The position numbers and the translations under genes are program-made. From a candidate division Zixibacteria bacterium RBG_16_53_22 (lineage in GTDB: Bacteria > Zixibacteria > MSB-5A5 > UBA10806): a DNA stretch of 45,933 bases. Of this stretch, positions 2,944 to 33,058 are shown piece after piece. The notes under the pieces were generated by a model that was not told the origin of the DNA, made no database searches, and saw only the letters and a program-made list of their open reading frames with translations. The stretch spans positions 1 through 45,933 of the forward strand of contig MEWP01000050.1 in the NCBI GenBank assembly GCA_001775395.1, in the 5' to 3' direction. How positions within the stretch are numbered: the first letter of the stretch is position 1; each line of letters starts with the position of its first letter.

Positions 2944-3675
2944 GTGAAAAAATCGCTAATCCCTTTAAAGGTTACGCAAGAGGATTTCGATCGGGGAAAG
3001 AGTTATGAAAAGGACGGAAAGGAATTGCTTTTCCTTGAACAGTTCAAGGCGCTTCGCGCCAAATTCGAATACCAGGTGGATATACATAAATACAAGGTCG
3101 TCGCCGTGACCAGTGCAATCGCCGAGGAAGGGAAAACCTTAACCTCGGCGAACCTGGCGACGAACCTGGCATCGGTCGGACGGAAAAAGGTTCTCCTTGT
3201 AGACACCGATATGAGAAAATCCGATATTGCCCGGATGTTTGATGCATCTCCGAAACCCGGGCTAAAGGAGTTCCTTGCCGGGTCGGTACCGCTCGAAAAA
3301 ATTATTTTATCAAGTAATTCGGTGAGAGGTCTCTCTTTTATCTCCGGCGGAGAGAAGGGGACTACGCCCCCGGACCTGCTGGCAGGGGAAACGTTCCGCT
3401 CTTTTCTCCAGGAAATGCGAAGTAAATTTGATGTAGTTCTTCTCGACACCCCGCCGATTCTTCCGGTGGCGGACACCATGAGCCTGCGGGACCAGGTTGA
3501 CGGATTCATCTTGATATTCCGGATAGGGCTAACCCCATATGTGATGCTTCAGCAGGCACTCGAAGAGATAGATAAAAACAAAATCATAGGCGTTGTCCTC
3601 AACGGCGTGGAAATGCATAAGTATAAATATTACCAACGATATTACGGCGATTATTACCATAAGAAACCCGAATAA
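2944..3675 (+). CDS. Bacterial tyrosine kinase, CpsD/CapB type
   Basis: A 243-residue cytoplasmic BY-kinase, partner of the Wzz just upstream. P-loop around residues 57-66 (SAIAEEGKTL, Lys64), Walker A' KVLLVDTDMRKS about 82-93, Walker B DVVLLDTPP near 165, and a C-terminal tyrosine cluster (YKYYQRYYGDYY), the usual site of cyclic autophosphorylation that controls Wzz assembly. The start is GTG at 2944, placed by AGAGGGCAG just before it. The P-loop lacks the usual PGEGK (it reads AEEGK) but keeps the invariant GK, so activity is plausible. It closes the first co-directional run; 238 bp of AT-rich DNA follow. Confidence 0.88.
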   Translation: MKKSLIPLKVTQEDFDRGKSYEKDGKELLFLEQFKALRAKFEYQVDIHKYKVVAVTSAIAEEGKTLTSANLATNLASVGRKKVLLVDTDMRKSDIARMFDASPKPGLKEFLAGSVPLEKIILSSNSVRGLSFISGGEKGTTPPDLLAGETFRSFLQEMRSKFDVVLLDTPPILPVADTMSLRDQVDGFILIFRIGLTPYVMLQQALEEIDKNKIIGVVLNGVEMHKYKYYQRYYGDYYHKKPE

Positions 3676-3913: not shown

Positions 3914-4619
3914 GTGAGGCTGCCGACATTGATTTTTCATTTTCTTGACATAGTGAATTTTTTCAAGGGAAAAAATAAGAAGAATACCTTGGGTGGCATT
4001 TATTCAGACGATGCTTTCCGAGCCATTCTTGAGCGGGAAAAAGCCCGCTCTGAACGTACCGGGCAGATATTTTCCATTGTTTTATTCGAGTGCAAAAATG
4101 GAAATGGAACCAACGTCGCAACGCTTACGCGCCTGGGAAACGATATCACCCGAAGGATAAGGAAGAGCGATGAGGTAGGCTGGTATGATGGAAACCGCAT
4201 CGGAACAATCCTTGCCGGATCCTCAACGGAAAGGGCATGGCAATTTGTTGAAGCTATTAAGGAAACAATTGAAGGAGTAGACCCCGGCCTGATTTGCTCC
4301 GTCTACACTTACCCCTCACCATGTATTAGTTCGAACGTTCACGGGGAGACTACAAAGGAACATCAGACACTTTCAGAACTTGCGGCGTCGCTCAACGTGA
4401 AGGCAAATTCTTCCACGGTGATGCCAGACGCAGGGAAATGAGTCGAGCGGCTCGATATTCTCTGCCCAACCGATTCCAATATGGAATCGCACGGTTGATT
4501 TCTTCGGGACGCTTATACTTTTAATTATTCTGTCCTCGGTTTTCCTATTGATCGCCCTCTTCATCAAGATCGTTTCCCCCGGTTTGGCACTCCATGATGG
4601 TGTAAGAATCGGTAGGTAA
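3914..4619 (+). pseudogene. Broken sugar transferase with GGDEF-like N-terminal domain
   Basis: The GTG-started frame 3914-4441 encodes 175 residues resembling a degenerate GGDEF-type domain (FRAILEREKARSERTGQIFS, then RLGNDITRRIRKSDEVGWYD); no GG[DE]EF signature is seen. It ends in GGGAAATGA. One base less in that run continues the frame (+1) as NESSGSIFSAQPIPIWNR and then TVDFFGTLILLIILSSVFLL with ALFIKIVSPG and GVRIGR, the membrane hairpin and start of a bacterial sugar transferase (PF02397: KRxFD...SPG...RIG). A TAA at 4617 follows and the whole catalytic domain is missing. I read this as one fusion gene hit by a 1-nt indel and a 3' truncation. It would have been an initiating phosphoglycosyl transferase. 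Confidence 0.7.
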
Positions 4620-4621
4620 GG

Positions 4622-5146
4622 ATGAAACCCAAAGCGAAGAAGCAAATATCGGGGGTATTGGCGTCGGTTTTTGTTCTTATCTTTTTCCAACTTCCCTTTG
4701 CTCCCTCTTCATCGGCAGCTCTCTACGACAGTTTTCCTGCCACGCAATCGATTTCGTACCCAACGGGGTATACTGATGGTGAAGGCCGGAATATAACGCA
4801 AGCCTATTGGGCTTACGACGGAACGTATTACTTCTTCCGGTTTGATCCCTTTGGACCCTTCAACAACAACAGGAACTACGGGTTTTACTTCGAACCCGAC
4901 GGGAACTTGAACACTTTCGTCGCAGATTTCTCGACCGATACGGCGGCGTACATGGCATACATATTGGAATGGAAAGAAGTAACGTTCACGAAATTCCCCA
5001 GCGATTTAGGCACGTGGTGGGGGGCGACGAGCAACATGGGTGGAAATCTGAAAGATATAATGACATCGATCCCAAGTGCCGTCTGGCTTTTTGCGTTGGC
5101 CGCGCTCGTTCTCGTTGTCCTGAAGAGGAGAAGGCCAACGTCCTAA
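4622..5146 (+). CDS. Secreted protein with PEP-CTERM-like sorting tail
   Basis: A 174-residue protein with a Sec signal peptide (MKPKAKK, hydrophobic GVLASVFVLIFFQLPF, cleavage near SSSAA), an aromatic-rich middle of unknown fold (AYWAYDGTYYFFRFDPFGPF) and a tripartite C terminus: IPSAVWLF, a hydrophobic helix ALAALVLVVL, and KRRRPTS. This matches the variant PEP-CTERM signal in which VPSAVWLF replaces the Pro-Glu-Pro core, recognised by exosortases in other species. ATG 4622 follows the sugar-transferase remnant stop by 2 bp. No exosortase gene is in the window, so processing would depend on one elsewhere. The middle domain is not recognised. Confidence 0.75.
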   Translation: MKPKAKKQISGVLASVFVLIFFQLPFAPSSSAALYDSFPATQSISYPTGYTDGEGRNITQAYWAYDGTYYFFRFDPFGPFNNNRNYGFYFEPDGNLNTFVADFSTDTAAYMAYILEWKEVTFTKFPSDLGTWWGATSNMGGNLKDIMTSIPSAVWLFALAALVLVVLKRRRPTS

Positions 5147-5367
5147 GTTCTTCGCGTAATAGGATTTCCTTTGGGCACGGTGAGCGCCTGCCCGGAAGAA
5201 TCGAATCCGATCCGCCACACCCCTTCCCGGTCCACCGACACCCATGAGCCTTCTTTGTAGATACCCCGGGGAGGCGCAGCGATAAGAGTCCGCGTCCTGA
5301 AATGGGGGAACAGTCTCGCTCTGAGGATCCCGAAATCTTTCGCAGGGGAGGTCATGCTGTCGGACAA
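5143..5367 (-). CDS. Small unrecognised ORF, doubtful
   Basis: A 74-codon frame on the minus strand that converges on the PEP-CTERM-like gene, overlapping its stop by 4 bp. The product is not recognised (contains GIYKEGSWVSVDREGVWRI). There is no strong ribosome site before the ATG and no partner gene in this orientation. The surrounding 1.3 kb consists of decayed genes, so this may be another fragment or chance. It is listed because nothing else explains 5147-5378. Confidence 0.2.
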   Translation of the reverse strand: MSDSMTSPAKDFGILRARLFPHFRTRTLIAAPPRGIYKEGSWVSVDREGVWRIGFDSSGQALTVPKGNPITRRT

Positions 5368-5378
5368 GTACGTCGTTT

Positions 5379-5522
5379 AAGATCAAGGTCGTGAACGGAA
5401 AGTTCGTCGTGGCTTCTGCCCCGGAACCAGAGATCACCCTCGAGAAGCTTCTGTCCGGTATCTGTGAGCGCAACCTGCACAGGGGTGTTTCCATCTGCCC
5501 GTACGCAGAATCGGAGGAATAG
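5379..5522 (+). pseudogene. mazE: MazE-type antitoxin remnant
   Basis: The frame from 5379 to the TAG at 5520-5522 reads KIKVVNGKFVVASAPEPEIT then LEKLLSGICERNLHRGVS. This fits the second half of MazE/AbrB-fold antitoxins: end of the DNA-binding swapped hairpin (dG.ivi) followed by the toxin-binding tail, consensus yTLeeLl..it.eNlH.Ev. The N-terminal half is not found upstream in any frame, and the tail after NLH is degenerate (SICPYAESEE instead of a G..GxEEW end). It sits immediately upstream of the MazF remnant, the normal antitoxin-toxin order, which supports the call. Confidence 0.6.
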
Positions 5523-5865
5523 CGAGCTGCCGCGAGTATATCCCGGGCCGCGGCGACGCGGTATGGATCGCTGGAACCATAAAGCAGGGCACGATCCGGA
5601 GGGGTATGGCCCGGCGCTGGTTCTTTCCACTGTGGCCTACAACGGAAAGGTCGGGCTTGCGCTGCTTTGCACGATCACCGATCGGGTGAAGGGCTATCCC
5701 TTCGAGGTCCTGATTCCGGGAAATATGAAAGTAAGGGGAGCGGTTCTGTCCGACTAGGTGAAAAGCATGGATTGGAAGGCACTCAAGGCGGAACTGATCT
5801 GCCGGCTTCCCGAGGCGACCGTATTGGAGGTCCTGCGGAAAGCCGCCGTGCTTCTCTCGAAATGA
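5519..5865 (+). pseudogene. mazF: MazF/PemK-type endoribonuclease toxin, frameshifted and stopped
   Basis: Frame 2 gives EYIPGRGDAVWI (5534-5569), the MazF N-terminal strand. The frame then shifts near 5570, and frame 1 continues WNHKAGHDPEGYGPALVLST, then AYNGKVGLALLCTI and KGYPFEVLIPGNMKVRGAVL-SD, matching the PemK core (GHRPALVLSP.aYN...GLalvCPIT...KGYPFEV). An in-frame TAG at 5755-5757 falls where the family has Gln (SDQVKSLDW); beyond it VKSMDWKALKAELICRLPEA runs to a TGA at 5863. The position expected for the start codon is ATA (5519). The toxin therefore carries at least two inactivating lesions. Intact, it would cut mRNA and pair with the upstream MazE. Confidence 0.8.
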
Positions 5866-31417: not shown

Positions 31418-33058
31418 ATGGTCTTTCTCTCCACATTGCTGATCTCGCTGTTTACGACCATCGTCCTGATCCCGGCGCTCGGCGCCGTAGCGGGTAAGTT
31501 CAATGCGATGGATATCCCGGACGAGCGGAAGGTCCACGAGCGGCCCATCCCCCGGACCGGCGGGATCGCCATGGCGGCGGGGGCGATCATCCCCGTTCTT
31601 CTCTGGGCGCACGGCGACGGTTTCGTGCGGGCCTACCTGGCCGGTGCGGCGATCCTGGTCTGTTTTGGCATAGTCGACGATTGCAGGGGCATCACCCCCA
31701 AATGGAAGTTCCTCGGGCAGTTCGCCGCGTCTCTCGTAGTCATCTTCCTCGGGGGGTTGAAGATCCGCACGCTGGGGATGCTCCTGCCGGGGTATGCCGA
31801 CCTGTCCGGTTGGGTTTCGGTCCCGCTGACCATGCTTGCGATCATGGGGGTGACCAACGCCATCAACCTGGCCGACGGCCTGGACGGCCTGGCCGGCGGC
31901 ATCTGCCTCCTGATCTTCTGCACCATCGGGTTCCTCGCCTACCTGCAGGGAGACGTCATCATCGGGCTCGTCTGCCTGGCCATGGCGGGCGCCATCTTCG
32001 GTTTCCTGCGTTACAACACCCACCCCGCGACGGTCTTCATGGGGGACACGGGGAGTCAGCTGCTCGGTTTTTCGGCGATCACCCTGTCGCTCGATCTGAC
32101 GCAGGGGAACACGGCTCTTTCCCCCATTCTGCCCCTTTTCCTTTTGGGGATTCCGGTGCTCGACACGCTCCTTGTGATGATCCTGCGACTGAAAAGGAGG
32201 AAGTCCCCCTTCTCGGCGGACAAAAACCACATCCACCACCACCTCATGGCCCTGGGGCTGCACCACGGGGAGTCGGTCATCGTGATCTACACATGCCAGG
32301 CGTTTTTGGTAGTCGCCGCGTACCTGCTCCGGTATTACTCGGACTGGATGCTGCTCGGCATATATCTGGGGTTTTCCGTCGCCGCCGTCTTTCTGATTTC
32401 GGTGACAAGCCACAACGAGTGGAACGTTAAATCCGATTCCTTCGTTCCGATGTTCCCCGGGTTCCGGTACATGAAGGATGTAAAGCAGAAAGGGAACGTC
32501 ATCAGGACGGTCATGCCGGCCCTGCAGGTCGGGCCGCCCCTGCTGCTTTTTTTTACCTGCCTGCTACCATCTGGTCTGCCGGCGTATGCCCCCTACTGCA
32601 CCCTGGGGTTTGCCGGGTTGATCGCAGCTACCTGGGCGCTCAAGTGGGATGCGCTGGAGGAAGTGCTTCGGGTAACCCTTTACCTCTTCATCCCGTTTGC
32701 CGTGTACGAGAGTTCGCATGCCCCTTCCGATTGGGCGAAAGGGGTGCCGTTTCAGCTCTACAACGGGACCTTTTTTCTGCTGGCGATGCTCGTCATCCTG
32801 GGTTCGAAGCTGTCCCGGCGCCAGGTGGGATTCAAGAGCACCCCGCTCGATTTCCTGATCTTTTTCCTCGCCCTGGTGGTCCCCAACCTGCCCGAGCAGA
32901 ACATCCAGGCGTACCAGCTGGGGAAGGTAGGGGCCAAGATTGTCATCTTCTACTTCAGCTACGAGGTGCTGATGGTTGAGCTCCAGGGGAAGTTGGGCGT
33001 CCTGGCCCTGTGGACGGGGGCGGCGCTTGTCGCCCTGTCCATACGGGCCATCGTCTGA
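31418..33058 (+). CDS. WecA/MraY-family phosphoglycosyl transferase with long C-terminal membrane extension
   Basis: 546 residues. The first about 340 hold all family signatures: FGIVDDCRGITPKWKFLGQF (DDxxx), GVTNAINLADGLDGLAGGIC (NxxDGxDGLA), VFMGDTGSQLLGFSAI and NHIHHHLMALGLHHG. It would transfer a sugar-1-phosphate, probably HexNAc, to undecaprenyl phosphate, starting the repeat. The extra about 200 residues carry roughly six hydrophobic helices (PPLLLFFTCLLPSGLPAYAP, TFFLLAMLVILGSKLSRRQ), not part of standard WecA and not recognised. Since the PF02397-type transferase at 4.4 kb is broken, this is the only intact initiator in the window. Confidence 0.88.
   Translation: MVFLSTLLISLFTTIVLIPALGAVAGKFNAMDIPDERKVHERPIPRTGGIAMAAGAIIPVLLWAHGDGFVRAYLAGAAILVCFGIVDDCRGITPKWKFLGQFAASLVVIFLGGLKIRTLGMLLPGYADLSGWVSVPLTMLAIMGVTNAINLADGLDGLAGGICLLIFCTIGFLAYLQGDVIIGLVCLAMAGAIFGFLRYNTHPATVFMGDTGSQLLGFSAITLSLDLTQGNTALSPILPLFLLGIPVLDTLLVMILRLKRRKSPFSADKNHIHHHLMALGLHHGESVIVIYTCQAFLVVAAYLLRYYSDWMLLGIYLGFSVAAVFLISVTSHNEWNVKSDSFVPMFPGFRYMKDVKQKGNVIRTVMPALQVGPPLLLFFTCLLPSGLPAYAPYCTLGFAGLIAATWALKWDALEEVLRVTLYLFIPFAVYESSHAPSDWAKGVPFQLYNGTFFLLAMLVILGSKLSRRQVGFKSTPLDFLIFFLALVVPNLPEQNIQAYQLGKVGAKIVIFYFSYEVLMVELQGKLGVLALWTGAALVALSIRAIV

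Follow-up and report, generated by a model that had tools for sequence, protein, structure and literature searches.

What is left between positions 3914 and 4619 of this DNA, a single broken gene in which a GGDEF-like signalling domain was joined to a sugar transferase or an unrelated pair of fragments, and what could the intact form have done? Little is known in general about the post-translational regulation of the initiating transferases of Wzx/Wzy systems, and if the fusion is real, GGDEF-like control and the initiating enzyme would lie in a single polypeptide and would hence be testable. The window, i.e., the whole stretch of 45,933 nucleotides that was analysed, comprises positions 1–45,933 (forward strand) of contig MEWP01000050.1 from the assembly GCA_001775395.1, candidate division Zixibacteria bacterium RBG_16_53_22. 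As the best explanation, and with good confidence, we consider 3914–4619 the pseudogene remains of a monotopic phosphoglycosyl transferase of the bifunctional type (GGDEF-like domain plus PF02397). The features on which the argument is built are as follows:

2944..3675, + strand: CpsD/Wzc-type BY-kinase of the polysaccharide cluster, directly 5' of the 175-aa ORF (TIGR01007 E 7e-40, TIGR03018 E 3e-38)
3914..4441, + strand: 175-aa ORF, the former N-terminal part (GGDEF-like domain and linker), with GTG start and TGA stop
3992..4276, + strand: degenerate GGDEF-like domain, residues 27–121 (TIGR00254 match, hhalign, Foldseek, alignments)
4301..4318, + strand: VYTYPS motif, in register with VYSYPS of the homologue G069 (linker comparison)
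4422..4441, + strand: interval holding the frame change, from the last hairpin-frame stop to the TGA of the 175-aa ORF
4437..4619, + strand: remnant of a monotopic sugar-phosphate transferase (PF02397), reduced to its re-entrant membrane hairpin and followed by TAA (profile matches, BLASTP)
4622..5146, + strand: gene of an unrelated PEP-CTERM-like secreted protein, 2 nt after the TAA (TIGR02595 13.6 bits, cut-off 16)
5147..5760, + strand: decayed mazEF-type toxin-antitoxin pair (PF04014 E 6e-5, PF02452 E 3.5e-5, on frame fragments)
31418..33058, + strand: WecA/MraY-type polytopic initiating transferase (TIGR02380 E 1e-55)

Shifted frame and missing catalytic part

The hairpin is encoded in frame +1 by positions 4437–4616 (60 aa, NESSGSIFSAQPIPIWNRTVDFFGTLILLIILSSVFLLIALFIKIVSPGLALHDGVRIGR), followed by TAA at 4617–4619. 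It matches PF02397 positions 2–44 of 179 (E 7.7e-4), the match ending at RIGR, and TIGR03022/TIGR03025 recognise the same hairpin part (E ~3e-6). The remnant thus carries the hairpin of a monotopic phosphoglycosyl transferase and lacks the catalytic part with its Asp-Glu pair (PF02397 positions 45–179), as no further sequence matching the PF02397 profile was found downstream or elsewhere on the contig. The hairpin frame contains no ATG, GTG or TTG start, and upstream it is last interrupted by the stop at 4419–4421, which places the frame change within 4422–4441. With this one change and the last ~135 model positions gone, no catalytic residues remain in the window copy, which, judged from its sequence, is probably non-functional (shifted frame, no catalytic half); the value of a dead copy would lie in pointing to intact relatives.

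A degenerate GGDEF-like domain

Residues 23–121 of the 175-aa ORF match the GGDEF model TIGR00254 with an E-value of 3.2e-5 and PF00990 with one of 0.029; neither match reaches the curated cut-off of its model. Comparison by hhalign with four genuine GGDEF domains of the same class returned 97% probability (E 1e-10), while a sequence search of the PDB matched GGDEF proteins weakly (3ign, E 4e-5). Two AlphaFold2 models were built, one of the read-through product without relatives (pLDDT 56) and one of the domain together with one relative (core pLDDT 70–82); for both, the first PDB matches in Foldseek were GGDEF domains/diguanylate cyclases (e.g., 6khu, E 2.9e-7, TM by target 0.69). Profile comparison and predicted structures together assign the domain to the GGDEF-type alpha/beta fold. 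The features of active diguanylate cyclases, i.e., the GG(D/E)EF motif and the metal-binding loop, are missing, with DGNRI (residues 92–96) in place of the former and a metal/GTP catalytic loop (DxDxFKxxND..GH) that is 8 residues shorter. RKSD (residues 83–86) supplies an RxxD at the I-site position, at which G069 has SPTD; since this arginine is not common to the two proteins, c-di-GMP is one candidate ligand among others.

A sequence-only reading of this DNA had described a degenerate GGDEF-like region joined across a frame break to the hairpin of a PF02397 enzyme that stops after RIGR and has lost its catalytic domain, and all of these elements were borne out. Its description of the domain as nucleotide-binding is unproven, given that the GTP/metal motifs are lost and the RxxD is not kept in G069.

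A putative homologue with both halves in a second genome

When the window domain was used as query, one specific relative was obtained in the class (E 2.8e-7), located in CP070824.1 (G069, Candidatus Zixiibacteriota bin1124), a scaffolded MAG; the part of the record that was examined consists of ~1.4–1.6 kb contigs joined by 100 N, and the contig order is arbitrary. The reciprocal search with the G069 domain in 129 genomes of the class matched the window (E 2.4e-8) and itself only, and the fused query from the window matched both halves in G069. There, too, the domain directly follows a BY-kinase gene. The N-terminal half stops at a contig end after LAHDIRAA, just past the residues aligned to window position 118, and the contig with the C-terminal half opens in frame with VFPRGQVYSYPSDW (window counterpart VDPGLICSVYTYPS) at residues aligned to window ~122 and runs on into a complete PF02397 enzyme. 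From the shared motif to the hairpin, the distance is 59 residues in both the window and G069. The in-register VY[ST]YPS match was equalled in 25 of 60000 linker shuffles, whereas equally high scores at any place in the linker are not rare (785 of 20000). The hairpins of the window and of the G069 enzyme are 43% identical over 47 aa (BLASTP).

G069 therefore resembles the window in the position of the domain after the BY-kinase, in the linker motif and its spacing, and it provides the complete PF02397 enzyme in its C-terminal half; it differs in that its domain is 29% identical, has no RxxD arginine and belongs to a gene split by a contig gap. Measured against the definition of a bifunctional phosphoglycosyl transferase (Bi-PGT) with an N-terminal regulatory domain as both domains in one ORF in at least one homologue, the G069 halves meet at contig ends and share the linker and spacing with the window, from which we infer one fusion gene split by assembly. 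The former fusion proposed in the sequence-only reading, which was to be abandoned if no homologue joined the two parts, is upheld by these paired halves: G069 holds both, with contig ends abutting inside the gene, though no contiguous copy was seen. An intact fusion very probably existed, with the window copy as its remnant, to judge by these sequence comparisons. Curated models recognise both parts, each at the end where it is expected, and this speaks, together with the missing start codon of the hairpin frame and the absence of a catalytic remainder, for such a fusion pseudogene; that the sole homologue is split by contig ends, and its low domain identity, speak against it.

Search for further relatives

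The fused query detected no contiguous fusion gene in 132 genomes of the class/phylum, and among the matches listed, the PF02397 enzymes of the class were mostly large-type frames or frames of ~300–330 aa. Pattern scans of genome contigs with the window protein revealed no close homologues, and those with the two-row alignment returned only the G069 record and a Bacilli protein, which was discarded as a chance match. Scans of viral contigs and with DNA patterns gave no match, nor did tblastn of the fused query against plasmids; the G069 enzyme half matched many PF02397 enzymes on plasmids. A planctomycete plasmid enzyme (Aquisphaera, 242 aa) was examined and is without an extra domain. Public databases probably contain 'sugar transferases' from planctomycetes and acidobacteria that have an N-terminus of this type, a lead rather than evidence. 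The literature search, with the superfamily survey PMC7848588 outside its coverage, found no paper naming GGDEF-PF02397 fusions.

In one genome of the set (G021), a degenerate GGDEF protein of 175 aa stands alone (L072 1312–1839, − strand); its neighbours are a receiver-domain protein and a regulator of the NtrC type. This similar-sized protein and the intact reading frame of 175 codons in the window both count against a fusion pseudogene, as they would suit a GGDEF-like protein that the cell continues to produce and that functions on its own, as a small protein for signalling or as an adaptor, with the hairpin remains of no relevance. We regard this as rather improbable, because the GTG start has no clear ribosome site, the linker is part of the fusion, the only relative specific to the domain (G069) is fused by position, and the G021 protein gives a weak match (E 1e-3) and has different surroundings.

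Decay and origin of the contig

The proposed fusion pseudogene lies in what is a decay zone around the truncation; the mazE and mazF fragments at 5147–5760 carry stops and frame changes, and this decayed pair was counted in support. The PEP-CTERM-like protein encoded in between ends in AVWLFALAALVLVVLKRRR, just under the TIGR02595 cut-off.

Tetranucleotide usage in five 9-kb segments of the window correlates with the genome centroid at 0.65–0.77, whereas 13 out of 16 further stretches that were tested lie at 0.94–0.98, and the best relative of the window BY-kinase in the class, even within the same genus, has 38% identity. Based on these two lines of evidence, the window contig probably either was assigned to the wrong bin or represents a large island of foreign DNA. 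Three further contigs of the assembly (C133, C80 and C23) are likewise compositional outliers (0.54–0.72 to the centroid) but bear no resemblance to the window, and C23 holds one of the two exosortase genes.

The origin of the contig bears on the claim that loss of the fusion left the WecA-like enzyme as sole initiator. Inside the window this is correct, the WecA-like enzyme being the only intact initiator, but four complete PF02397 monotopic enzymes are encoded on other contigs of the same genome assembly, and as the window contig is a compositional outlier that may not belong to that genome, neither a lineage-specific loss nor a sole initiator is warranted. The cluster in the window is of the XrtA/PEP-CTERM type, with a chain-length factor, kinase, PrsT-like TPR protein, amidotransferase and ligase. 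Elsewhere in the assembly (contig C140), a WecA-type transferase and a degenerate PF02397-like region are fused in a single frame, which has 587 aa in the locus and 770 in the genome; the match to the PF02397-like region is split in two pieces.

As the window is a metagenome contig and apparently misbinned, the gene could also be intact in the organism, with the frame change or truncation an artefact of the MAG contig. We give this only a slight chance, as it requires two independent lesions, the gene that follows immediately after the truncation is intact and has a start of its own, and the run at the break consists of three A only. Programmed +1 frameshifting, for which the frames overlap right at the TGA after GGGAAA and a stem-loop-like site occurs at 4439–4454 (~1.4 such sites being expected by chance in the region), is scarcely credible without a known slippery motif or conserved structure and was rejected because its product, a membrane-anchored GGDEF-like regulator of 234 aa, would end inside the PF02397 fold and still lack the catalytic domain.

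Known systems and proposed function

PelD is a degenerate GGDEF receptor of an exopolysaccharide system that binds c-di-GMP via a conserved RxxD; it acts in a synthase-dependent system and is not known to be fused to a transferase. The window domain resembles it in that a GGDEF fold devoid of cyclase residues is encoded within an exopolysaccharide cluster; it differs from the synthase-dependent PelD in that it was very probably fused to a transferase.

Bi-PGTs of the monoPGT superfamily consist of the PF02397 core and an extra domain at one end, and their fused regulatory domains include receiver domains, according to PMC10942596 and PMC12802240, which describe this group after O'Toole et al. 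2021. Fused extra domains on monotopic enzymes having been described, the window fusion, likewise PF02397 with an extra domain at one end, belongs to a kind already known; what sets it apart is the GGDEF-like domain, which the two papers do not mention, and its truncated, frame-shifted state. In the EpsZ-EpsW pair of Myxococcus xanthus, a separate single-domain response regulator binds the initiating phosphoglycosyl transferase, and such action of a response regulator on an initiating transferase was demonstrated only recently (PMC12802240). Both arrangements would have a signalling domain controlling an initiating phosphoglycosyl transferase after translation, except that the regulator is a separate protein in M. 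xanthus and the window-type domain would be in the same chain as the enzyme.

In the intact form of the fusion, the chain would run from a degenerate GGDEF domain in the cytosol through a linker of ~60 residues to the re-entrant hairpin and the catalytic domain, and the enzyme would transfer sugar-1-phosphate to undecaprenyl phosphate. The ancestral gene would have followed the BY-kinase of an XrtA/PEP-CTERM-type exopolysaccharide cluster. The domain beside the transferase core may have been an allosteric, non-cyclase regulator that binds a ligand or a partner, possibly a ligand receptor. It is conceivable, and we propose it tentatively, that the catalytically dead GGDEF served as an integral sensor, for c-di-GMP, a different ligand or a partner, and switched the first committed step of the Wzx/Wzy pathway in cis; no description of such in-cis control of a phosphoglycosyl transferase by a GGDEF-like domain was found in the literature surveyed. 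In two members of the class, intact diguanylate cyclase genes are located directly upstream of polysaccharide export genes (L003 394–2025 and L005 448–1998).
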